This document shows positions 5,965 to 56,178 of a stretch of DNA of 64,000 nucleotides, piece after piece (the stretch's first letter is position 1; each line of letters starts with the position of its first letter). This DNA comes from Hirundichthys speculiger (lineage: Eukaryota; Chordata; Actinopteri; Beloniformes; Exocoetidae): the NCBI GenBank assembly GCA_018398805.1, contig JAGFBZ010000942.1:372001-436000 (forward strand). Direction: 5' to 3'. A program made the position numbers and the translations under genes. The notes beneath the pieces were generated by a model. It worked only from the letters and a program-made list of their open reading frames with translations. It was not told the origin of the DNA and did not search any database.

Positions 5965-6714
5965 GTCTATACCAGTGGTTCCCAAACTTTTTGTGCCCAA
6001 GGCGCACCAAAGGACAAGTAAAAATCTCAAGGCACACCCAAATAGCCTTTATAACACGTGTTATCACTCATATCATGAAAAATATCTGTAAATGTGGATA
6101 ATTGTTTACTAATATAAAATTAAATATGACAAAGACAACTATATTGCTCATGAAATATTTATAAATGAAATATTTCAACAATTAATTTGAAACTTCATCA
6201 ATTTAGGCTTCATCAAAGCAGCAACACACCCATTTAAACCAGACATGTCACAAAATTGAATACTGGGGTTAGGGTTAGGTGATACTGTCTGTTGACAGTT
6301 TTTTTTCTCTTTTCTTTTGGTGGGTTGTCGGCAGCCTCTGCACTGGTGGTTGATGGTTTGCTCCGCACAAGAAAGCGCTCCATTTTCCCTCTCGTTATGT
6401 GTGTTTATGTTGGATGTCTTGATGTGTCACAGTCATATATTTCTCACCTGCGCAACTGCCTGATCAGCGAAATATGGAGTTCTCTTTGAGGGTTTTTTGT
6501 TTAAGAATTGTGAGCTTGCCTCCGTAATATTAAATGAGTTCATACAAAGTAGTGATAGGCCTATAGTAAATTAAAAAATAATTACTTTTCTGTAATTGTA
6601 TATTGCAATAATAATATACTGTATGGTTGTCCCAAAATCCCACGGCACACCCGCACTTGTCTCAAGGCACACTGGTGTGCCTCGGCACACCGTTTGGGAA
6701 CCACTGGTCTATAC
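5965..6714. mobile_element. Non-autonomous hAT element (MITE)
   Basis: The element proper is 5973-6706 (734 bp). It starts CAGTGGTTCCCAAAC and ends in its reverse complement GTTTGGGAACCACTG, a perfect 15-bp terminal inverted repeat. Both sides carry the identical 8-bp target duplication GTCTATAC (5965-5972 and 6707-6714), the hallmark of hAT insertion. Subterminal copies of GGCACAC/GGCACACC are frequent. There is no transposase frame, so movement would require an enzyme in trans. The perfect target duplication argues for a reasonably recent insertion. Confidence 0.93.
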
Positions 6715-8814: not shown

Positions 8815-8832
8815 CCCCCCCCCCCCCCCCCC

Positions 8833-8886
<54 letters not shown>

Positions 8887-8898
8887 ACCCCCCCCCCC
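8815..8898. repeat. Poly-C tract (84 bp)
   Basis: The 84 bases are all C except A at 8833 and 8887, leaving 53 uninterrupted C at 8834-8886. It creates proline-only open frames on the + strand that are not genes. Such tracts can form i-motif or G-quadruplex structures and are prone to length error in sequencing. Confidence 0.97.
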
Positions 8899-32753: not shown

Positions 32754-35700
32754 CTAGACATCTCTGTAACGTTGAGGTGGTGCTCCTCTAGTCGCCCTGG
32801 TGGATCGCCTTGGATCTGCTGCCTCTGGATAGGTTCTCGTGTTGTTTGTGGCCCGCCAGCTCCCTCTAGTGTCCGAACCTGTAGGGACCCAAAACCCAGC
32901 CCATGGGGGGCCTGTGTGGGAGTGGGGGCCTCCCTGCTGAAGCTTGGGCACAGGGTCACTATTCCCTTGCTGGCTTGGCACGACACTCTGTTCTGGTACC
33001 GGAATTAACTGGTTTGCGTGCACCACTTTCTCATGGTTTCCTCCATCATGTCTAATCACATAGACAGGCAAGTTAGGGTCAGGCTGTTTTACTACTAGAT
33101 AAGGTTTTTCTTCCCACTTATTAGAGAGTTTTCCACGTCCTTTTGCCCTCATATCCTGCAAAAGTACCTTTTGGCCAGGTTGTAATGAAGGTGGGGCAGA
33201 CCTCCGGTCAAAGTAGACCTTCTGTCGAGCCATTTCGGAGTCCTTGAATTGGTTTGCTTTTTCCATTGCAAACTGGAGACGCTTTTGATGACAGGTAACC
33301 CAGTTCTCTACAGATGTGCAGCCACCACTTTCGGAGAGGCCCAAGAGACGATCCTGGGGGAGAGATCCATGTCTCCCAAACATCAAATAATGTGGAGTAT
33401 ATCCTGTTGTGCTGTGAATGGAGTTATTGTACACTTGCATCATTTCAGGTAGATGGTCGTGCCAGTTTCTCCTCTCGTCACCCAGGGTGCCCAGCAAGCC
33501 AAGGAGCGTCCGATTAAGTCTCTCACAGGCACCATTCCCTGCAGGATGATAAGGTGTTGTATGGCTCTTTGACATGCCATACAGATTACACAGTTCTCTC
33601 ATCAGGTTAGACTCAAAATTGGGCCCCTGGTCCGACAACAACCGTTTAGGCACTCCAAACTGTTGAATAACCTTATACGATAGTACCTTAGCTGTAGTGG
33701 TAGCCGTTTGATCTTTCGTAGGGGCGGCCCAGGCAAACTTTGTAAAGTGGTCCACCATCACGAGCACGTTATGATAGGCATCCTCAGCATGTCCTATAGA
33801 CAGAAAATCCAAAGAAAGCAATTCCATAGGAACATTTGACTGTATTGGGATTAGGGGTGCTCTGGTTTGATTAGGTGCTTTGCGCAGGACATGGTTGACA
33901 TTCAGCACACCAGTTAGTGACATCTTTAAGCATATTTGGCCAGAAGAATCTATGCCGCAGTAATGCTTGCGTTTTCTCAGGGCCCCAATGGCCTGCTTGT
34001 GTATGGTACATTTGCCAAACATTATAACGCTCACCCTCTGGAAGACAGATTTGGAAAATTGGGTCCAATACTTTTGGGTCGTGCAGTCTTCGGTGTAATA
34101 CACCATTGATCAAGGTAAGGCGATCCCAATGACTTAGGACCTGCAACGTCATTTTACTTTCATTTTGCCTCTCCGATCCATTTGGACGGTAGCCCCTTTG
34201 CACATACATTGCTACTCGTGCCAAAATGGGATCATTATTTTGAAGATTTTGCCATTGTACCCGAGTCCGTTCTGGTAGTACAGGGATGCCAACCGGGTCG
34301 GGTTCAGTTGAATTCAGTCCACCAACACCAATACACATTGCTCTGGCCACCGCTACTCCAGTGGGGGTAAATGAAGGGATCTCCAGCCCCTCTGTCACCT
34401 CTTCTGAGTCCAGTGTAGGTATTTCTGGGGGAAAACGAGACAAAGCATCTGCACTTTGGTTAGTGCGCCCTGGTTTATACTTTATCTCAAACTGACCAAA
34501 CGTGCTGCCCATCTTTGCTCCAAGCTACCAAGTTTTGCAGAATTCAAGTGTACTAGGGGATTGTTATCCGTGTACACAAGAAAAGGGGCACAATGTAGAT
34601 ATTCAGCAAACTTCTTTGTCACAGCCCAAGTTAGGGCTAAAAATTCCAGCTTGAAAGAGCTGTAATTTTTATCATTTCTCTCTGAGGGGCTAAGTGTTCG
34701 GCTTGCAAATGCAATCACCCTCTCCTTTCCATCCTGTATCTGACACAGGACTGCACCCAAGCCCCGGCTACTGGCATCTGTGTAAAGGACAAAAGGCAAG
34801 GTATAGTCAGCATAGCCTAAAATCGGTGCAGACGTGAGGGCATTTTTCAAGCTCTGAAAAGCCTCTACACACGTTTCATCCCAGTTTGAAAGAAGTCGCT
34901 TTCCAGAACCATTTGAATTTTTTGGGCTTATTCCAGTTAATAAGCGATTAAGTGGACTGGCAATCTTAGCAAAGTCTTTGACAAAACAGCGATAATAACC
35001 AGCTAGACCCAGGAATGACTGAAGTTGTTTGACTGTTGTCGGGACAGGCCACTGTTTAACACACTTCACTTTTTCAGGGTCGGGAGAAATTCCTGCTGCA
35101 GACACTCGGTGCCCCAGGTATTGTACCTCTTTTTTTAGAAAATGACATTTATCTGGTTTCAGTTTTAAGCCATGTTTCCCCAGCTTTTCCAACACAGAGT
35201 CTAAATGGGCCAGATGAGAGTCAAAATCTGGTGAATATATATTATCACATCATCCAAATAGATTAATACAGACTGTAGATTTTGGTCTCCAAGACATGTG
35301 TGCATTAATCTTTGGAAAGTAGCTGGTGCATTGGACAATCCAAAAGGCATTCTTGTAAATTCATACAGCCCCATTGGTGTAATAAAAGCAGTCTTTTCTC
35401 TATCGTTTGGAGCAACCTGTACTTGCCAGTACCCGCTGGCTAAGTCCAATGTGGTGAAAAACTTTGCTTTGCCCAAACTAGCTAGTGACTCTTCTATCCG
35501 AGGGAGCGGGTAAGCGTCCTTATGAGTCACTGCATTCAATCTGCGGTAATCCACACAGAATCTCAGGGTCCCCATCTCTTTTACGCACCAACACTATGGG
35601 AGCTGCCCATGGACTGGTGCTGCTGGGTACAACAATCTCAGAATCCAACATACCTTGGATCAATGCCTTCACCTCTTGGTACATTTGCGGTGGTATTTGA

Positions 35701-36773
35701 CGATAGCGTTCTCTGACAGGTGGTGCGTCTACCGTTGGAATCACATGTTGCACTGTTGTTGTACGTCCGTAGTCTTCATCATGTGTTGCAAAGACAGCTC
35801 TGTGTTTATGGAGGAGAGCTTGAAATCGCTGTTTGTTTTCTGCACACAAGTCGGAATCATTGAAGTTAGGCAAGGCATCATGCTCAACACACACTTTGTT
35901 TTCATCTGTACTCACTCTTATTGTCATTGCACTGACCCGGGTCAAGGTCACATTATTCTCAGGAATTACATCGGCAAGATTAACTTCACAAGTTTTAGCC
36001 AACACCTGATGTCTGTACAGATACATTGGCAAGTTATTTGGGTTTCTGACTTTTATCAACACTCGTCCACATTGAACGGTTGATAAGGAACGAGCAATTA
36101 AAAGTCCACCCACCTCAAGTGGTTCCACCAAGCACTGATAGTCTTTTCCATCAATTCCTCCTTTGGTCCGGCCCCACAGCAGAACTTCACTTTGGGCTGG
36201 AATTTGGACAGGATGACGGTTGATTGTCCTCACATATCCAATTGTACCCTCAGAATCTGCAAACTGAGCCTGTCTGGAGCAGATTTTAAACGCCATGGTC
36301 CATGCTTGTTGTTGAGAAGGGTCACTGGTCATTGAGGAAATAGGGTGATTATCCATTTCTTGCCAGAGGCGAGAAATTATGTTCATCCCCACTACACCAT
36401 TAGTGTCAGAAAGGCAATGATCTTCCACAATCAGGAAGCCGCAGTCTGTCAACTCAGCTTCACCTACTTTAATAGGGAGGATCACATAACCCAAGTAGGG
36501 GATGTTAAGTCCATTAGCGGCTTCTAGTGTAAGCCAGTGTCCTGCATCCTCCAACCGATTACCCTCTTTGGCAAAATGACTCAGAAAATAACTGTTTTTC
36601 ATCAGTGAAACATTAGACCCCGTGTCTAAGATGCAGCAAACTGGAACATTTTCAATCATCAAGTCAACATTTGGTACTTGTCCAATCAGTTTGTTTGCAA
36701 CTCCCGCCTTAGGCCCTTTAAGTTCTGGGTATCCCACTGTATGGGCCGCTACAGTGGTGTCAACTAGTTTAAA
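32754..36773 (-). pseudogene. pol: Gypsy Pol: protease, RT, RNase H, integrase; four frame breaks
   Basis: Pol is entered in the -1 frame at the end of gag. In order on the minus strand are: aspartic protease (CILDTGSNVSLM, near 36610-36640); reverse transcriptase (MPFGLSNAPATFQ and the YLDDV active-site box near 35245-35265); RNase H (LYTDASSRGLGAVLCQ near 34780 and VYTDNNPL near 34570); integrase with its HHCC finger (34020-33890), then catalytic D in LSLDF, D in LLSDQGPNFES and E in ACERLNRTL; and a C-terminal chromodomain-like or basic region to 32754. The reading changes frame near 35570 (a four-C run), 35234-35243 (an AT run), 34490 and 33888. It therefore cannot be translated as one polyprotein, although every domain is present and well conserved. 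Confidence 0.9.
36712..36773 (-). promoter_or_regulatory. Gag-Pol -1 ribosomal frameshift signal
   Basis: On the minus strand the heptamer T-TTA-AAC (36767-36773) is in the gag frame and is followed at once by the gag stop. Slipping back one base enters a frame that is open into protease. Nine bases downstream is a perfect 8-bp stem (CCACTGTA/TACAGTGG, 36734-36757). Its loop contains GGCCC, complementary to GGGCC at 36712-36716, which would make an H-type pseudoknot. Sequence, spacing and frame all fit the classical -1 signal. Its efficiency is untested. Confidence 0.75.
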
Positions 36774-37750
36774 GAGGCTGATCTTTGTCTAGCATTACAA
36801 AAGCGAGCAATGTGGCCTGACTGGTTACAATTATTACAAAGGGGATTACCCCGATCATCGTACCGGTTGGTAAAATTCATTCGAGAGCGGCCCCTCCCCA
36901 CAGGTCTGGTCTGAGAGAATAAAGGATTCCAGCCTGAAGAGTGGGCTGGCTCAGGTGGAGCCCTCTGCAGCTCAGACCTAATGTCACTGATGATGGTTTT
37001 GGAAAGTTCTGTAAATTTAGTCATCATTTGAGTATTCATTTCTTCTCTTAGCTGTGATTTGAAATGTTCAAAATCATTAGCGGACGCAGTTTTGCTGTCG
37101 TGCCCCTTCAACATGAGACATTGAGCCTGTTCAAATACCTCACCATAGGCCTGTTCTCTCAAACATAGTTCATCTTTAATAGTTTCAAATGCGAGCGAAT
37201 CATTCAGCAAAACTTTGGTTCGAAATTCACCCCTGGTTGCTGGATCTCTAAGGCCTTCAATCAAGTGGTCTCGAAGTAGAACATCCTCATCCTTAATTCC
37301 TCTTGAGTCTTTGTTTTTAAGCCTGTTAAAGTCCTCTTGCAATCGGAGAGCAAAAGTACTAATGTCCTCATGTGGCTGTTGTTTAGCATTGAAAAATTGT
37401 GAACGCAAAACTGAGGCAGTGACTTTGTCCCCATACAGCTTGTTAAGTTCTGTAAAAATCTTTGCCGTTGTGTCCCGTCTGTTTTGTGGCAAAATTAAAA
37501 TCTCTCTTTTGGCCTTGCCCTCTAAGCAGCAAAGTGTAAGTTCCACCCTGAAGTCCACTGGTACTCCTCGCAATGCAAAGGTGGTTTCTAAACTACTTTT
37601 CCACTCTGCGAGACTGATCTCGGAGTCTTTGCCTTTAAACTTTGAGGTCACCATGTTAAACATAGGGCTCATGCCAAGTGGTCTAATTGCTGGAACTTGA
37701 TCAGGGTCACGTCTACTGGCACCGGGTTGAGTTTGACTCTGGTCTGTCAT
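36764..37750 (-). CDS. gag: Gypsy Gag polyprotein
   Basis: The intact frame encodes 328 residues from the ATG at 37750; a longer GTG-led reading adds only four residues. Gag forms the particle that packages the element RNA. Residues 305-318 are a CCHC zinc knuckle (CNNCNQSGHIARFC), which binds RNA. The middle region with EDFNRLKNKD and ALRLQEDF-type helices fits the retrotransposon capsid domain. The stop codon TAG at 36764-36766 follows directly on a T-TTA-AAC slippery heptamer, so pol is probably made by -1 frameshifting as a Gag-Pol fusion. No breaks are seen, in contrast to pol. Confidence 0.88.
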   Translation of the reverse strand: MTDQSQTQPGASRRDPDQVPAIRPLGMSPMFNMVTSKFKGKDSEISLAEWKSSLETTFALRGVPVDFRVELTLCCLEGKAKREILILPQNRRDTTAKIFTELNKLYGDKVTASVLRSQFFNAKQQPHEDISTFALRLQEDFNRLKNKDSRGIKDEDVLLRDHLIEGLRDPATRGEFRTKVLLNDSLAFETIKDELCLREQAYGEVFEQAQCLMLKGHDSKTASANDFEHFKSQLREEMNTQMMTKFTELSKTIISDIRSELQRAPPEPAHSSGWNPLFSQTRPVGRGRSRMNFTNRYDDRGNPLCNNCNQSGHIARFCNARQRSASLN

Positions 37751-37774
37751 TTTGCCCACCACTGGTTTTTATTT

Positions 37775-44356: not shown

Positions 44357-44829
44357 TTCATTAGTAGGGATGTAACGATTTACTCAACTCACGATTCAGT
44401 ACGATTCACGATTTTTCACTCACGGTACGATTCACTCACCGTTGAAAAATGAGCTGCAGACAAATTATGACCAAATAAAATGGTCTTTTCTTCATAGAAA
44501 TTAGTGCAATTGAGATGATCATCTTAAATATATTCTATTTTCTTTAAAGACATACAGCACATCATCATTTATCTCCTTTTATTACAAGAAAATTATTTAA
44601 CTGATATCCTTCAACGTCTGAAATAACAAAAACCCAAAAAAGCTCATTTTCTTCAAAAACTCATTTTCCACAACTGAAAAGGGCCTCAAATCTTTTGCAA
44701 TAAAATAACCCATAACCCTGGTAATTTCTTGTGCCCTTGTGTTGTTGAGGGAGAGAGGAGCCTCTTTGGCAGTTTTCGCTGGGCGAAGTCTGCTCTTTGT
44801 GGTGCCAGGTGACGCGCTGCAACATGTTG

Positions 44830-45188
44830 CTTGTGTTTAGGGGTGAGTATTGGCAAGGACCTCGCAATACGATATGTATCATGATACTTTGTCACGATAC
44901 AATATTATTACAATATTACGATATATTGTGATATTCTACCCAGTTAATATCAAAATTAAAAGAAGAGATGAAAAATCAAGTTGCTGTATATGTTCATCAG
45001 AGAATATTGATCATTCAGAGGACAAATTGAGTCAAAACTATTTGCTTCTAAACAACCTATTTATTGTTTATTATTAGTGTTTTTGAAAAAAATTGATATT
45101 AGGAGCTAAAAAGTCAATATTATATTGGGCGGCCGAAAATCATAATATATTGCCAAATTGATTTTTTTTTCACACCCCGACTTGTGTT
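44830..45188. mobile_element. hAT element E, nested in D
   Basis: The element proper is 44838-45180 (343 bp). The left end TAGGGGTGAGTATTGGCAA and the right end (reverse complement TCGGGGTGTGAAAAAAAATC, then TTTGGCAATAT) are imperfect inverted repeats. The target duplication CTTGTGTT is perfect (44830-44837 and 45181-45188). The body is rich in CGATA/ATATTG motifs. It has no coding capacity. Confidence 0.88.
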
Positions 45189-45268
45189 ACCTGTATATGT
45201 TAGCAGTTTCTTACAATATTTGCATGCTGTTCTGGTCTTGTATGTCTCTTTCTCACCGTTCTTTTTTT

Positions 45269-45299
<31 letters not shown>

Positions 45300-45870
45300 G
45301 TACATCGGGAATCCAAAATGCCGCCATATCGTTGACTTGAAACTACTCGGATCATCCTTTATCTCTATGTCACTGCTCACCGTCATCGCTCTGTACCTGA
45401 ATGCCAGTAGGCTACGTAGTGACGTGAGTTCTAACGCTGAAATTGAATCAACTGACAACATATCCTAAAATGAATTAATAAATAGACAAGAAGATACATA
45501 CTTATGACACATTCGCGATTCATTTTTCATGCCAACCGATCATGGGCGTAGTTTACGGTATGGACGGTAGGGACATGTCCCCACCACTTTCGAGATGAGC
45601 TTAAATTGTCCCCACCACTTTTTTTTACAAATCGCGCTAGACACAGTGCTTTAAGTGGGCCGGTACGCACCGGTACGGAGTACCCGCACTTCTCAATATT
45701 AGCCTCTGGCGTACCGGGACATTTTATGGCGTACCGGGACTTCTCATGAGCTCATAGTACTCTGTTTCTCTCCTTGCGATTTGGCAGTGGTGTCGCCATG
45801 ACAACGCCACTGCCCCTCACGAGACGTTCACTCGTAAGGAGGTCTCGCGAGTCGAGTGTGCCAGAAAGCA

Positions 45871-48800
45871 ATTAAAAGTAGTGTTGCACCGATACCATTT
45901 TTTGACCCCGATCCGATACCGATACCTGGCTGTGCAGTGTCGGCCGATACCGATATCATACCGATACCGATATTTTTATATGAAGAGCTGCATACTATTT
46001 GGATGCAAGTCATTGCCATCATGGATTTGTAAGGCTGATGCTTACCTTTGTGAAACAGGAAAAAGACTAAAACAAAGTGAATCCAGTAGAACTTTTTATT
46101 GCCTACCTGGTATGGGCTCTTTAAGGCCAAAATATTGCAACATCCGTGAAATTATACCACGTGTAATACCAGTGCAACAGTAAGAAAGTAAAATTACATT
46201 CATAATAAAATGAACTCTTTTAAACCCAGAGTTTTGGCTATCAAAGGCCAAAATAGTGCACCTTCATGAAATGAAAATGTTTAATAGTGCAACACTAAGA
46301 AAGTAAAATTTAATTAAAATCAGACATACGTACACAGTATGAGGTATATTTGAGAGTCTGCAGCAGTAAGGAGTAGAATTGACATAAGAACTTATTTTTT
46401 CCTGTAAACTAGGTCTAGACTGATGTACAGTACTCTTAAGTGCAGCCACAATTTTGTAAAATAAATAAGACCATTTCAAATGTTAGTATCCTCACACTGC
46501 TCCACACTGAGCAAACTAAAACAAGCAATGGGAAAAAATAAAGTTCACATTAGTGATATGTGATCTGTCACATAACACTTTGTAGTGTTTACTCAGTCCT
46601 TAGTATTCAAGTCTTTGGGGTTTAAGTTCAGGAACATTGGCAGATTTTTCTTGAGGAAGATTAGTGTTTCTACATTATCTCCAGACAGCCTATTCCTCTT
46701 CTCATCAAGTATGTTAGAAGCAGTGCTGAAGAGCCTCTCACTATCTACGCTGGTGGAGGGAGCGGAGAGAAACTTTAAAGCTGTAGTAGCCAGGGAGGGG
46801 AGCCGGTCTTTATTCTTTCCCCAGTACTCGAATGGGCTCTCTGTGCGCTGGATTGTTTTCTCAGCCAGATATGTCTCTATCTGTATGTGTTTAGCTGTGC
46901 TGCTGGCCCCACCTTGTTCAGCATCATGCTCTAGCAGGAATTCTTCATACAGCCCCTTAAAGCAGCTACTTGTGTTGGGCTCTGCTGACATCCGTGGGGT
47001 CTTCCTTGCTGGGTCTGTTGCTTCACTGGTGGTTGTCTGCAGTGATGACTCCTCCTTCGCCTCTTGGGTCAATGCACTTCTTGCAAGCTTGCTGCTCTCT
47101 GCACTTGAGAAGTATCTGCAATAACATAGTAAACAGAAAAGCATAATATAGCTGTTAGCTCATATGCTGTTGTTTAGCACTGCATTTAATTACACACTAA
47201 CACAAGTTGTTTAAACTTTACACTATAAAGCACACAATTAAACACACCTGTCCTTGTAACGTGGGTCTAACATGGTTGCAACAGAGTACAAGGGGTCCTC
47301 CTCAATGGTCTGGAATCTTTTGTCCATAGCAGCTAAAAGTGTTGACTTCATTGTTTTTATTCCGCTGTCCTCTGTAGTCTGTTTGGCCAAGAGACGCTTC
47401 AGGACAACGACTGAGGGGATTACCTCTGAGACGGTGGAGGTGGCGAAGCTGATCTGTTTTGTGATCTCTTCAAATGGAGCCAGAAGAGTGTTAATTTTCT
47501 CCAGCAAGGTCCAGTCACTTGCTGTCAGTGTTGCTGGGAGCTGGTGGTCAGCAGCATAGAGAGAGAGGGCACTCTTTTGTTCCAGCAGGCTCGCAGTCAT
47601 ATAAAAGGTGCTGTTCCAGCGGGTGGGAACATCTTGGATTAGACGTTTGGCTGGCATTCCCAGTCCCGTCTGGACAGCTTCAAGTCTTGATGTGGCCAAT
47701 GGGGAATGTTTAAAGTGCCCAATTATTTTTCTCCCACTGGCTAGCACATCACACACACTTCGCTGGGACAGCAGTCCATCATTCACCACAAGTTGAATCG
47801 AGTGTGAGAAACATCCCAGGCTGGAGACTCCCAGGTCCCTCATTGCCTTCTTCATATTACTGGCATTGTCCCGAAGAATGGTATGGACCTTCAATAACAA
47901 TGACAATAATAAAAAGAATAAGGATAATATTATTAATAATAATAATTTAACTATAATAATATAATTGACCACACAGCATCCTCCTGCCTCTGTATCAGTC
48001 TCCCTCTCTCACCAGCAGCAACATTACTCAACTCACAGCAAGGCACAAATGCAAGCAGCACATCTCTCTCTCTCTCTCTCACATACACACACACACAACT
48101 TTAACTACGGCATTTCTTAAAAGAAAGTGAAAATCAAGAGAAGATAGCAAGATCTAGACAAGTAAACTTACCTTTGACTTCGGGATGCTCCAGTTGAGCA
48201 GCATGCTCTCTATTGCTCCTGCAATAGCTTCGCCGGTGTGTGATCCCTTGAATTCATTCGCATGGAGTACTACGCTTTCTTGAATGAATGTATCCATGTC
48301 CACCCAGTGGGCCGTCAAGCTCAGCAGGGACAGTGGGGAGACTTGGCTGGTCCAGATGTCAGTTGAAAAGCTTACGGCCCCTGCCTTCTCCAGTTTTCGT
48401 GCAACAAGCTCAGTTACTTTCTTTTTGAGTGCAGGGATAGTCGTCTCCGTGATGTATTTGCGACTTGGAACCATGTACATAGGTACTGCGTGAGCCATAA
48501 AAAAACGGAATCCCACGCTTTCAACGAAGGAAAGGGGCAGGTTACAGAGAACAGTCATTTCGGTGATTTTTTCGGACATCTGTCTTGCTGCATCACTCTT
48601 CTCGCTCCACTGCTCCTTGCGACGAAGTGAACTTACCAGAGTTTGTTGCTGCGGTAACGTTCCATCTCGCTCTCGCTTGCTAGCAGTTGCTGCAGCCTCG
48701 AACTCTTTGTGTTCGTTCACATGTTTCGTCTTCAAATGTTTTATCAGGTTTGATGTATTGAAACTTGTCTGTTTAACTCCACCTCTCGATACTTTCACGC

Positions 48801-49181
48801 CGCAAGTCTTGCATGTAGCCATTGTACTGGCCGGTGTATCTACACTGAAATATTTCCACACCGCTGACATGTTCTTTTCCTGGTTTGTTTTGTCCTCCGC
48901 ATGAAAAAGGTGCCACGGGATTGGTTAGAGTGGCTCTTGGCCCGCTCTCATTGGTCTGTGGCAGGCGTGCACAGTGAGCACATGTGATCACACAACACAG
49001 AGCCCGTTCTACGAGCATAGCCGTGTTGGGACAGAGAAGGCTGCGTTTTGACATACTAGTATCGGTTAATGGTATCGGCTCCCTATTTTTTGGTACTCGC
49101 CGATACAGATACCACCATTTTAGTGCCGATACGGGCCCTGTCCGATACCGGTATCGGTATCGGTGCAACGCTAATTAAAAG
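45871..49181 (-). mobile_element. hAT element C, innermost and apparently intact
   Basis: The element proper is 45879-49173 (3295 bp). The ends TAGTGTTGCACCGATACC and (reverse complement) TAGCGTTGCACCGATACC match at 17 of 18 positions. The target duplication ATTAAAAG is perfect (45871-45878 and 49174-49181). Subterminal GATACCGATA motifs are dense at both ends and are probably transposase binding sites. It carries a three-exon transposase gene with no visible breaks, so it is the best candidate for an active autonomous transposon here. Confidence 0.94.
46593..48870 (-). CDS. hAT transposase (BED-finger type), three exons
   Basis: Exons 48870-48172, 47888-47248 and 47115-46593 join in frame to 620 residues. 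Donors (AAAG-GTAAGT and GACAG-GTGTGT) and acceptors (TTGAAG and ATTGCAG) are canonical. Residues 1-60 form a BED zinc finger with C20, C23, H45 and H50. The expected catalytic residues are D161 (FSTDIWTS), D240 (LRDNASNM) and E573 (SVDSERLFSTAS). The C-terminal 80 residues are the hAT dimerisation region (RNRLSGDNVETLIFL). The family cuts and pastes elements bearing its own terminal repeats. The start ATG has A at -3. Intron 1 holds a TC/CA repeat. A domesticated host gene is unlikely because intact element ends and target duplications flank it. Confidence 0.88.
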
Positions 49182-49532
49182 AACGCGAAAAAGAAGAGAT
49201 CTTGCGTTTGTTGATTGTAAACAGAGTTGGCAGTTTGATTTACCAGTTGGTTTGTTTGGATGGTTATGTGAACGTGAACCTACCTACTGTATTTACAAAT
49301 GTTGGCGTGGCTCCAAAAGGGCCAAAAGAGACCCTGGACCGATGACACACCCGGTGAAGATGATGACACAGGAGGACAAACAGACATTGATTTTGAAAGT
49401 GGAGAGCAGCAGTCAGCCAAAGGGATATCCCCTTGGCCAAGTAGCCAGGACACGTGATCAATCGGAGGTATATAGTGACAGGACCCCTCCATACTGTCAC
49501 ATCTCTCCCCCTCTTTCCCCAAGCACGTCCTC

Positions 49533-50173
49533 GTGCTCCACGCAGGGTGCCACAATGATTTCGAATCCATGGACAGTCACATGGATCCTGCCAACACTAA
49601 CACAGAAGTGGCTTCTGATTCACCTGTTGCCTGCGATATCAACAATAACTTCACAGGAGAAGAATGGCCAGACTGCTGGTCAAATGACCAAATAAGGTAC
49701 TTTTGCTCACAGAATGACTGGCTTATAAGTAAGGACAAAAGGCTTGGGTGTAAGGTATGCAGTAAAGTTAACTCCCTTGCTACCCAAACACATCAGGGAC
49801 TGAGGTTGTCACATGAGTGGGGTAGATGTTTAATCTCTGCATTTGGAGCAGACAAGGTAACACAAATGTTGTCTTTGCGAAAGAAGATCAGCTAAAAGCT
49901 GTCCATACCATTGCTGTGTCTACCAGTGAATGTGAGCGTGCCTTCAGTTGTATGAACAACATTCTTACAGACAGAAGGGACTCCCTTGCTGTTACCAGAC
50001 TTTCAGACCTGATCTTTCTGAAATGTAAAGGGCCACCATTAGAACAGTTCAGTCCACAAAGCTATGTGATGTCATGGCTGGCGAAGGGGAGACGAAGCGC
50101 AGAAGACAGGGAATGTGAAGCTCCAAGCCGTTCGAGCAAAGATGACCCCAAGACCTGCTGGAGCCTTTTCTAA
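49533..50173 (+). pseudogene. hAT transposase remnant of element B
   Basis: The first part (to about 49885) carries an acidic N-terminus, then WSNDQIRYFCSQNDWLI and GCKVCSKV, a Cys-rich segment found near the start of some hAT-derived proteins (KIAA1586-like, from memory of the motif). A frame change near 49885 leads into VSTSECERAFSCMNNIL and RLSDLIFLKCKGPP, the C-terminal dimerisation region. The catalytic aspartates between these parts are absent, so an internal deletion has fused head to tail. Frames upstream of 49533 continue with stops. An alternative reading is a deleted host-derived copy, but the element ends around it make a transposon origin clear. Confidence 0.65.
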
Positions 50174-51178
50174 GTAGGTTGAAATATAATCACAATTGTC
50201 TTATACATTCACAGTCCACTTCTTTTGACACATTTGTACAATATAATGCAAACCAGAACAGCAACACTGCTATGAATTCTACTTAAAAGAGCTTAATAGT
50301 TTTTAACATTTGTTGTCTGAAAAATTATGATTCTTCTTTAAGTTTATTATGGGTCTGTGTGTTATTTTCTCCATGCCTTGTCTCCATATTTTATCTATGT
50401 ATGTCTCTCATGTTTCTGTCCACAGGGAACTCTAGGTGCCAGTTAGTCCGGTTGTGCATCAGCCTCTATGCTACCTGAGGGCCACCCCCCTGAAGACCTC
50501 CCTTGTGTACACAGAATTTGTTTGGAAAATTCAATAAAACATTTTTCTTTTTAAAAATCAGTATAATGTCCTACTATTTAAATATATCACTTAATCATCT
50601 GCTGTTACACTGCCTAATTTAGCTGACATCAGTTGAATAAGGGGAATACTGGCACTTATTTTTTTCCACTTAAAGCACTGGCTAGACATAAGCATTTTCC
50701 ATAGGGTATTACTATTTTCCCAGTATTTTGCCCACCTGAAAAAGCTATTCTGATGATGATTGGCGCTTTAAAGCTTTGGCTTCGCCTCTATCTAGTCTTG
50801 GGATGTTTGCCAAAGTAGAGCATTTTGAAAGTCAATGAGATGGAAAGAAATGCCAAAGATTCTCCAATAAATACATGTTAACGTTAGCTGCTTTCAGTGA
50901 GTCCGTTCAACTTCTGTCTTCGAGGTAACGTTAGCCTTGCTTGCCAACTAGCCAGTTTGTTAGATTTTACTGGATAAAACTATGGCCCCGTTGCAACTTG
51001 TTGCATTGGCTTCTGTTTTCTGAAAGAACGTCAACAAGTTGCTGGTTTTTATTTTGCAGTTCATCTTGTGGTGAATTTTAGGTGTGAACAAATCGTTATT
51101 CTTGTATCCTATGCGTTGGTGTTGTCATGCTGTTCACATGCGCTATACGTTATTTCAGCAGGCAGATGGAATAGCATC

Positions 51179-51450
51179 ATGGACGCAGGGAGGAAAAAAG
51201 GAGATATAAGGTCGTATTTCTTGAATGTAAGTAGGCAAGTAGTTGTAGGCAAAAACTCAACCTCAGTAACGAGAAAATGCTTGAATTAATGTTTTTGCTT
51301 ATTAGCAAGGTATCTTACATTTTTGAAATTTTCATAGCCTTGTTGAATTATAATATGGTAATTTCAGTTTGTATTACTGTACAGACACCAGGCAAGAAAA
51401 GAAAGAGGGAAAGTACAGATCAAACAGGGAGAGAGCAAAGTAGTAATCAG
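51179..51450 (+). pseudogene. Two 5' exons of the element A gene
   Basis: Exon 51179-51226 encodes 16 residues from an ATG (MDAGRKKGDIRSYFLN) and ends at a GTAAGT donor. Exon 51385-51450 encodes 22 in-frame residues, including a nuclear-localisation-like KKRKRE run, between a TACAG acceptor and a GTAAGG donor. A short head with an 'IRSYF/IRSFF' phrase, followed by a basic exon, is typical of hAT/ZMYM-type transposase genes. No further exon is found before the element ends at 51904, so only the N-terminal stub survives. Confidence 0.5.
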
Positions 51451-51981
51451 GTAAGGTAGCCTACACAGTAATGTAATTTGTCTTATCCAGGCCTTCTGCT
51501 TTAGAACAGTCAGTCACATGAGTGAGTTGGTAAGAATATTGGTATACTGCCAAGTTTGAGATATTGACAAAGAAATCAGTACATGTGAGTTCTATGTGTT
51601 GATTCATTCAGCAGTCTGACACAAATGATTTTTGTGTATTTTTTCTCAATTCCTTCTTGTACTACAAATCATTACTTAAATGACTTAAAACAAAAAAACT
51701 TAATGACTTAAAACAAAATATTATAACCATATGATGTACACCTTCCTCTATTGGGAGTCATTTGGAGAGGTATGTAAATATAGTTTCATATGGTGCAAAT
51801 TTTCTAGCGTTGTATCTGACTTTCGTTAAAAAAAAAAAAAAGGACCCCTGACAATATGGCAAATTTATGTCCCCACCACTTTCCAAACCAAACCTACACC
51901 CTTGCAACCGATGCAAATTCTTATACATTTGTATCGGTTTTTATTCAACTAACGATGCATCGTTACACCCCTATTCATTAG

Positions 51982-54042: not shown

Positions 54043-56178
54043 GGACTCATCTGTGGACTCGTTCCTCCATCTGTGGACTCGTTCCTCCATCTGTGGACTC
54101 GTTCCTCCATCTGTGGACTCGTTCCTCCATCTGTGGACTCGTTCCTCCATCTGTGGACTCGTTCCTTTATCTGTGGACTCGTTCCTCCATCTGTGGACTC
54201 GTTCCTCCATCTGTGGACTCATTCCTCTATCTGTGGACTCGTTCCTCCATCTGTGGACTCGTTCCTCCATCTGTGGACTCGTTCCTCCATCTGTGGACTC
54301 GTTCCTCTATCTGTGGACTCGTTCCTCCATCTGTGGACTCGTTCTCCTCCATCTGTGGACTCGTTCCTCCTCCATCTGTGGACTCGTTCCTCATATCGTT
54401 GGACTCGTTCCTCCATCCGTGGACTCGTTCCTCCTCTGTGGACTCGTTCCTCCATCTGTGGACTCGTTCCTTTATCTGTGGACTCGTTCCTCCATCTGTG
54501 GACTCGTCTCCTCCATCTGTGGACTCGTTCCTTTATCTGTGGACTCGTTCCTCCATCTGTGGACTCGTTCCTCCATCTGTGGACTCGTTCCTCCATCTGT
54601 GGACTCGTTCCTCCATCTGTGGACTCGTTCCTCCATCTGTGGACTCGTTCCTCCATCTGTGGACTCGCTCCTCCATCTGTGGACTCGCTCCTCCATCTGT
54701 GGACTCGTTCCTCTATCTGTGGACTCGTTCCTCCATCTGTGGACTCGTTCCTCCATCTGTGGACTCGTTCCTTTATCTGTGGACTCGTTCCTCCATCTGT
54801 GGACTCGTTCCTCCATCTGTGGACTCGTTCCTCCATCTGAGGACTTGCTCCTCCGTCTGTGGACTCGTTCCTCCGTCTGAGGACTCGTTCCTCCGTCTGT
54901 GGACTCGCTCCTCCATCTGTGGACTCGTTCCTCCATCTGTGGACTCGTTCCTTTATCTGTGGACTCGTTCCTCCATCTGTGGACTCGTTCCTTTATCTGT
55001 GGACTCGTTCCTCCATCTGTGGACTCGCTCCTCCATCTGTGGACTCGCTCCTCCATCTGTGGACTCGTTCCTCTATCTGTGGACTCGTTCCTCATCTGTG
55101 GACTCTCTTTCCTCCATCTGTGGACTCGTTCCTCTGTGGACTCGTTCCTCCATCTGTGGACTCGTTCCTCCATCTGTGGACTCGTTCCTCCATCTGAGGA
55201 CTCGTTCCTCCGTCTGTGGACTCATTCCTCCGTCTGTGGACTCGCTCATCCGTCTGTGGACTCTTTCCTCCGTCTGTGGACTCGCTCCTCCGTCTGTGGA
55301 CTCGTTCCTCCATCTGTGGACTCGTTCCTACATCTGTGGACTCGTTCCTCCGTCTGAGGACTCGTTCCTCCCTCTGTGGACTCGCTCCTCATCTGTGGAC
55401 TCGTTCCTCCGTTGGACTCTCCTCTGTTCCTCTCTGTGGACTCGTTCTCCATCTGTGGACTCGTTCCTTTATCTGTGGACTCGTTCCTCCATCTGTGGAC
55501 TCGTCCTCCATCTGTGGACTCTGTGGACTCGTTCCTCCATGTGGACTCTTCCTCCATCTGTGGTCTCCATCTGTGGACTCGTTCCTCCATCTGTGGACTC
55601 GTTCCTTTATCTGTGGACTCGTTCCTCCATCTGTGGACTCGCTCCTCCATCTGTGGACTCGTTCCTCTATCTGTGGACTCGTTCCTTTATCTGTGGACTC
55701 GTTCGTTCCTCCATCTGTGGACTCGTTCCTTATCTGTGGACTCGTTCCTCCATCTGTGGACTCGCTCCTCCATCTGTGGACTCTCTGTGGACTCGTTCCT
55801 TTATCTGTGGACTCGTTCCTTTATCTGTGACTCGTTCCTCCATCTGTGGACTCGTTCCTCCATCTGTGGACTCGTTCCTCATCTGTGGACTCTTCCCTCC
55901 ATCTGTGGACTCGTTCCTCCATCTGTGGACTCGTTCCCCATCTGTGGACTCGTTCCTCCATCTGTGGACTCGTTCTCCTCTCTGTGGACTCGTTCCATCT
56001 GTGGACTCGTTCCTCCATCTGTGGACTCGTTCCTTTATCTGTGGACTCGTTCCTTTATCTGTGGACTCGTTCCTCCATCTGTGGACTCGTTCCTCCATCT
56101 GTGGACTCGTTCCTCCATCTGTGGACTCGTTCCTCCATCTGTGGACTCGTTCCTTCACCTGTGGACTCGTTCCTCCAG
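54043..56178. repeat. 2.1-kb minisatellite, 20-bp unit
   Basis: The unit CTGTGGACTCGTTCCTCCAT is repeated about 105 times. Variants carry TTTATC, CTCTATC or CCGTC in place of CCATC, GCTC in place of GTTC, and CTGAGGA in place of CTGTGGA. Variants are clustered (for example CCGTC units at 54850-54900 and 55200-55370). Indels are sparse before 54340 and frequent after 55090. Because 20 is not a multiple of 3, all frames cycle through the same 20-residue repeat, which yields long ORFs (up to 707 residues +, 233 residues -) that are not genes. Confidence 0.97.

Follow-up and report, generated by a model that had tools for sequence, protein, structure and literature searches.

Five hAT-like transposons nested within 7.6 kb of Hirundichthys speculiger DNA, with a predicted complete transposase in the innermost element

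The window analysed here is a stretch of 64,000 nucleotides from Hirundichthys speculiger (assembly GCA_018398805.1, contig JAGFBZ010000942.1, positions 372,001 to 436,000 of the forward strand), and all positions below are those of the window. Between 44357 and 51981, within 7.6 kb, it holds five nested hAT-like elements, here called D, E, A, B and C, whose ends and duplications can be located to the exact base (Table 1). An earlier note on this DNA had described five hAT transposons, each with an exact 8-bp target duplication (TSD), and we found each of the five elements, with both copies of its TSD, where it had placed them. The nesting it described was likewise confirmed: D holds E and A, A holds B, and B holds C. 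Borders, duplications and nesting are read directly from the letters, and the TSD is exact in all five elements. Identity between the two inverted ends (TIR) is 14/15 for D, 8/10 for E, 11/14 for A, 15/15 for B and 17/18 for C. The lengths of the host elements D, A and B in the table were obtained by in-silico excision of their inserts, leaving a single TSD copy behind at each site. With the TSD copy excluded, B lies 95 bp from the left end of A and C lies 227 bp from the left end of B; the offsets of 103 and 235 bp given earlier agree with these values once one TSD copy is counted in. The five elements had also been assigned to different families, and a cross-element comparison bore this out, its best match being no better than E 0.038.

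Table 1. Elements, target duplications and coding features of the nest
Feature	Position	Strand	Length and remarks
Element D, outermost, hAT-like	44365-51973		886 bp without inserts; TIR TAGGGATGTAACGAT / TAGGGGTGTAACGAT
TSD of D, TTCATTAG	left 44357-44364, right 51974-51981		exact
Degraded BED-finger-like frame of D, first part	45181-45333	-	continues left of E, below 44837; sub-threshold
Element E, hAT-like MITE inside D	44838-45180		343 bp
TSD of E, CTTGTGTT	44830-44837 and 45181-45188		exact
Element A, inside D	45541-51904		1319 bp without B
TSD of A, CAACCGAT	45533-45540 and 51905-51912		exact
Possible first coding exon remnant of A	51179-51226	+	16 codons, then GT donor by eye
Element B, inside A	45644-50680		1734 bp without C; perfect 15-bp TIR CAGTGCTTTAAGTGG
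TSD of B, GCTAGACA	45636-45643 and 50681-50688		exact
Broken transposase coding of B	49299-50173	+	N-terminal part from ATG at 49299; hAT dimerisation part in 49826-50173; middle missing
Element C, innermost, inside B	45879-49173		3295 bp; TIR TAGTGTTGCACCGATACC, 1 mismatch in 18
TSD of C, ATTAAAAG	45871-45878 and 49174-49181		exact
C transposase exon 1 (predicted)	48172-48870	-	ATG at 48870, donor GT at 48171; BED zinc finger, first presumed catalytic D
C transposase exon 2 (predicted)	47248-47888	-	second presumed catalytic D
C transposase exon 3 (predicted, with stop)	46593-47115	-	presumed catalytic E; hAT dimerisation domain (PF05699, E 6.8e-19)

The ends of hAT elements are short inverted repeats whose second base is A and whose fifth base is G. 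In the nest, G5 is present at 10/10 ends and A2 at 9/10 (the right end of E has C), although this is not an independent test of the signature because our blind scan itself accepted only pairs with G5 in both ends and A2 in one of them. That scan searched the 64 kb for 8-bp direct repeats 150-12,000 bp apart with at least 9/12 inverted end positions and the hAT-like signature. It returned six pairs, namely the five nest elements and one solitary element (5973-6706). Forty dinucleotide shuffles gave 19 pairs in total, a mean of 0.475, with none in 24/40, any in 16/40 and a maximum of 3. The terminal match was 12/12 for B, 11/12 for C and D and 9/12 for E and A, while the best in any shuffle was 10/12. 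B, C and D thus exceed the shuffles individually, whereas E and A alone would not stand out; these two rest on more than the scan, since A has a longer inverted repeat and E sits inside the BED-like frame of D.

A relaxed scan, which accepted a TSD of at least 7/8 and 8/10 inverted bases with the first five identical, found 69 pairs in the window, compared with 26-42 in each of 12 Markov resamples. Simple repeats account for part of the excess, and by inspection many of the pairs are AT-rich or of simple-repeat type. Among the 69 pairs in the 64-kb window we recognised no other hAT-like pair that was convincing as an additional layer. The relaxed scan misses E, A and C because of its demand for five identical bases.

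The solitary sixth hAT-like element is 734 bp long, with a perfect 15-bp TIR (CAGTGGTTCCCAAAC) and an exact TSD (GTCTATAC); with the TSD included it spans 5965-6714. Its ends look like the Charlie/Buster type. Elsewhere in the window, minus-strand frames at 32757-37768 show similarity to integrase and reverse transcriptase/RNase H, together with aspartyl protease and gag-like (PNMA) similarity below cut-off, and this region is likely the body of a Ty3/gypsy-like retrotransposon. A 20-bp minisatellite of about 107 copies (54048-56177) leaves an uninterrupted frame of 732 aa between 54018 and 56213, which is likely a trap for false gene prediction. An 84-bp run at 8815-8898 consists nearly entirely of C nucleotides.

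For element C, alone among the five, a complete transposase is predicted. Its exons were picked by eye among open frames that are directly visible, and the junctions between them carry the GT and AG of splice donors and acceptors. The resulting three-exon model runs on the minus strand from 48870 to 46593 and gives 620 aa with no internal stop. The whole protein carries a single BED finger (E 1.8e-11) and a hAT dimerisation domain (E 3.9e-18). Against the Pfam RNase-H-fold model it scored 19.2 bits, below the cut-off of 27 bits, and it matched Hermes transposase structures at E 6.7e-22. Residues D171 and D240 align under Hermes aspartates, and E573, in the SER motif, likewise aligns with an acidic residue of Hermes. 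All three are invariant in 15/15 aligned sequences, that is, C and 14 relatives hand-picked among the best 120 of 523 matches. We take D171, D240 and E573 to be the catalytic triad of hAT transposases. With both its frame and its ends intact, C is a candidate active vertebrate transposon.

Among the matches listed, the nearest relatives of C are 'ZBED4-like' proteins, mostly from fishes with some from frogs; together with the overall character of the sequence, they point to a teleost host. The top one is a 'ZBED4-like' protein of Carassius gibelio, with 58% identity over 97% of C, and a partial relative, P0027, reaches 61% over 72%. The 14 aligned 'ZBED4-like' relatives are 600 to 651 aa long and have the same BED and dimerisation domains as C. 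The domesticated host gene ZBED4 has four BED domains (PMC3606216). Because C has one BED finger instead of four, and is bounded by inverted ends and a TSD, we regard it as a transposon, and the possibility that it is the domesticated ZBED4 host gene was ruled out. Downstream of the transposase gene, C also contains an internal direct repeat (46115-46195 / 46236-46310) of about 80 bp, 78% identical.

Element B is, as judged from its coding remains, an internal deletion derivative with broken hAT coding. The broken frames are directly visible. The C-terminal dimerisation part matches PF05699 at E 6.7e-05 (23.0 bits, cut-off 21.4), and the catalytic middle is missing. The N-terminal part matches a relative, P0122, at 94% with 47% of the query covered. 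When the protein is read from 49299, its stops fall in a stretch that is absent from P0122, and the dimerisation part resumes in another frame. About 164 bp of the B coding region, within 49410-49579, are absent from both P0121 and P0122 and have CAGTCA borders at 49410 and 49574, a 6-bp repeat that could be chance. P0121 reads as a different internal deletion of B's family, to judge by its alignment. Over 66 aa of their dimerisation parts, B and C share 35% identity. A literature search on a link between B and KIAA1586 gave no paper, and no such link is proposed here.

Element D probably retains a degraded BED-like frame. The piece to the right of E scored 12.5 bits against zf-BED (E 0.15; cut-off 20.6), and the frame read across E's empty site scored 17.9 bits (E 0.0032), still under the cut-off; its best structure match was ZBED1 at E 0.014. 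The rise from 12.5 to 17.9 bits when the flanks are joined supports both the borders of E and the hAT nature of D, and E likely landed inside this degraded frame. On the minus strand of 44830-45333, the BED-like frame of D contains a CA repeat. No recognised coding was found in the 343 bp of E, where the parts inside the D/E frames were searched. A retains at most a short N-terminal frame, and its longest frame gave no Pfam domain and no homologue in profile and homologue searches. Non-autonomous hAT members usually lack a transposase. Since its absence is usual in such members, both E and A were filed as hAT-like by their ends and TSD length only. Next to the right end of D there is an imperfect inverted repeat of 76% identity (D 819-852, in the window 51905-51945 with 45533-45540), and one of its arms contains the target of A (CAACCGAT).

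Repeats near the ends were compared with 300 Markov resamples of each element, and the number of resamples reaching the top motif count was 0 for C, 1 for B, 7 for D, 53 for A and 85 for E. Subterminal repeats are therefore clear for C and B, likely for D, and not apparent for A and E. In C the motif is CCGATAC, with 12 copies in the terminal 2 x 150 bp and 0 in the intervening 2995 bp. Searches for copies outside the window covered viral contigs and plasmids. The single viral-contig match to the end of C resembled none of the five elements at E 1e-3, and 44 viral-contig stretches matching the 15-base end of B were taken for chance. For the protein family of C, the viral contigs gave 83 pattern matches, 0 of them confirmed; an 18-base motif of A had 0 matches in viral contigs, and nothing matched the DNA of A among plasmids (near mode).

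Reading along the plus strand, the broken frames of B are followed by the short frame of A, and the C gene lies on the minus strand to the left of the B coding. It is plausible that a simple left-to-right annotation would fuse the genes of the nest wrongly.

Based on these results, we conclude that the nest was very probably built by successive, ordinary cut-and-paste insertions of five hAT-like transposons of different families, of which only the innermost, C, has a complete predicted transposase. Each insertion would have been made by a transposase of the element's own family across an 8-bp stagger, as in the cut-and-paste insertion of Hermes (PMC10368747). D, E, A and B may have relied on a transposase acting in trans, or may have moved before they lost part of their length. 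C would be the youngest element or nearly so, given its intact frame. Assuming neutral drift since landing, the open frame of C allows at most 4.4% substitutions per site (95%) when nonsense changes only are counted, and 1.2 to 1.6% when indels are included at assumed ratios of 0.15 and 0.1; these figures are limits, not ages. The same applies to the 0 mismatches in 40 TSD positions, which as a limit put the mean pairwise divergence at no more than about 7%.

When the window's six elements were inserted uniformly in 400,000 trials, a depth of at least 4 arose in 1.5e-4, five of the six in one stack in 7.3e-5, and both jointly in 1.75e-5. By these frequencies undirected insertion makes such a nest rare per window; since the window was chosen for its nest, they are not p-values for a preference. 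A 1-Gb genome comprises 15,625 windows, and if all had the 13% hAT content of this one, 2.3 would reach depth 4 and 0.27 would show the whole pattern. A mean-field estimate was made with hAT contents borrowed from the species of PMC4746887, where zebrafish has 11.73%. It gave about 54 elements expected at depth 4 per genome for zebrafish-like content, 0.24 for medaka-like, 0.017 for stickleback-like and 0.0002 for tetraodon-like content. If selection spared insertions mainly where constraint on the DNA is weak, the expected numbers would be higher without any targeting; none of the figures given here tests a preference.

From hits close to the left end of each host, the earlier note had suggested a preference for the subterminal regions of hAT elements or relaxed selection on such sites. 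A preference for left subterminal regions was not supported: E lies at 53% of the length of D and A at 93%, placing E mid-D and A near the right end of D, while B lies at 7.5% of the length of A and C at 13.3% of that of B. Fisher tests against uniform insertion gave p = 0.24 when proximity to either end was scored and p = 0.22 when only the left end was, with little power at n = 4. It is quite unlikely that the nest was targeted, either because hAT transposases prefer hAT subterminal regions or because palindromes or chromatin make the spot a hot spot. Three of the four insertions do fall in the outer 15% of the host as it now stands, the uniform window model seldom reaches depth 4, and the target of A overlaps the imperfect inverted repeat near D's right end; but neither Fisher test favours a preference, E is central, and the positions at the time of insertion are uncertain, since B has been shortened by its internal deletion and A probably too. 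The Hermes target pattern is nTnnnnAn (PMC10368747), and by eye only the TSDs of D and C, 2/5, fit it, which also speaks against targeting. A general preference of hAT elements for other hATs, or for their chromatin, would produce nests that stack themselves, a sediment-like record of family invasions with a still-competent C on top, and we consider such a process improbable. The places where the elements landed fit undirected insertion into DNA that is rich in transposons and under weak constraint.

Two further explanations concern the nest itself and its order in time. Transposon-rich DNA is prone to mis-joins, and repeat copies wrongly joined during assembly might imitate a nest; a mis-join is not expected to yield correctly paired inverted ends that are flanked, five times over, by an exact 8-bp duplication, and we hold such an artefact to be extremely improbable. 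The order D, A, B, C had been described as fixed by the nesting. As an order of inclusion this stands, but nesting is no proof of the order in time, since A may have moved loaded with B and C. In that case A would already have carried B, perhaps with C, on entering D, and the ends of A would enclose B and C as cargo, which is compatible with the nesting; inserts of 5 to 6.4 kb do not exceed the sizes known for hAT elements. Such a composite arrival is unlikely, since the ends of A would have to be mobilised with a 5-kb insert although A has no recognised transposase, and it is not the simplest history. Successive insertion in the order D, A, B, C is the simplest history, if not the sole one.

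With its exact borders, this four-deep, five-element nest gives the landing relations of five hAT-like families at a single locus without a consensus library. It provides a good test case for repeat annotators and leads to a predicted intact hAT transposase gene, that of C. By itself the nest shows no new mechanism. As repeated insertions of the ordinary kind probably account for the nest, it is likely to be an unusually clean case of a structure already known in kind, and not a new sort of structure.

In maize and rice, nested MITEs were reportedly described by Jiang and Wessler in 2001. In medaka, Rex1 lies inside the DNA transposon Izanagi in the dmrt1bY promoter (PMC5789577). These cases likewise have one transposon inserted in another; in the present nest all layers are hAT-like, and the chain is four deep with a fifth element beside it. 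Among the matches listed in the literature searched (titles and abstract openings), no description of such a hAT stack was found. Relative to the hAT superfamily (Hermes, Ac, Tol2), all five elements have the 8-bp TSD and short inverted ends, C and B have subterminal repeats, and C has the BED finger, DDE positions and dimerisation domain known from the anatomy of Hermes (PMC10368747). Unlike the superfamily type, B is internally deleted, D appears to keep a degraded BED-like frame, and E and A are without recognised coding; unlike Hermes, three of the five TSDs here depart from nTnnnnAn.
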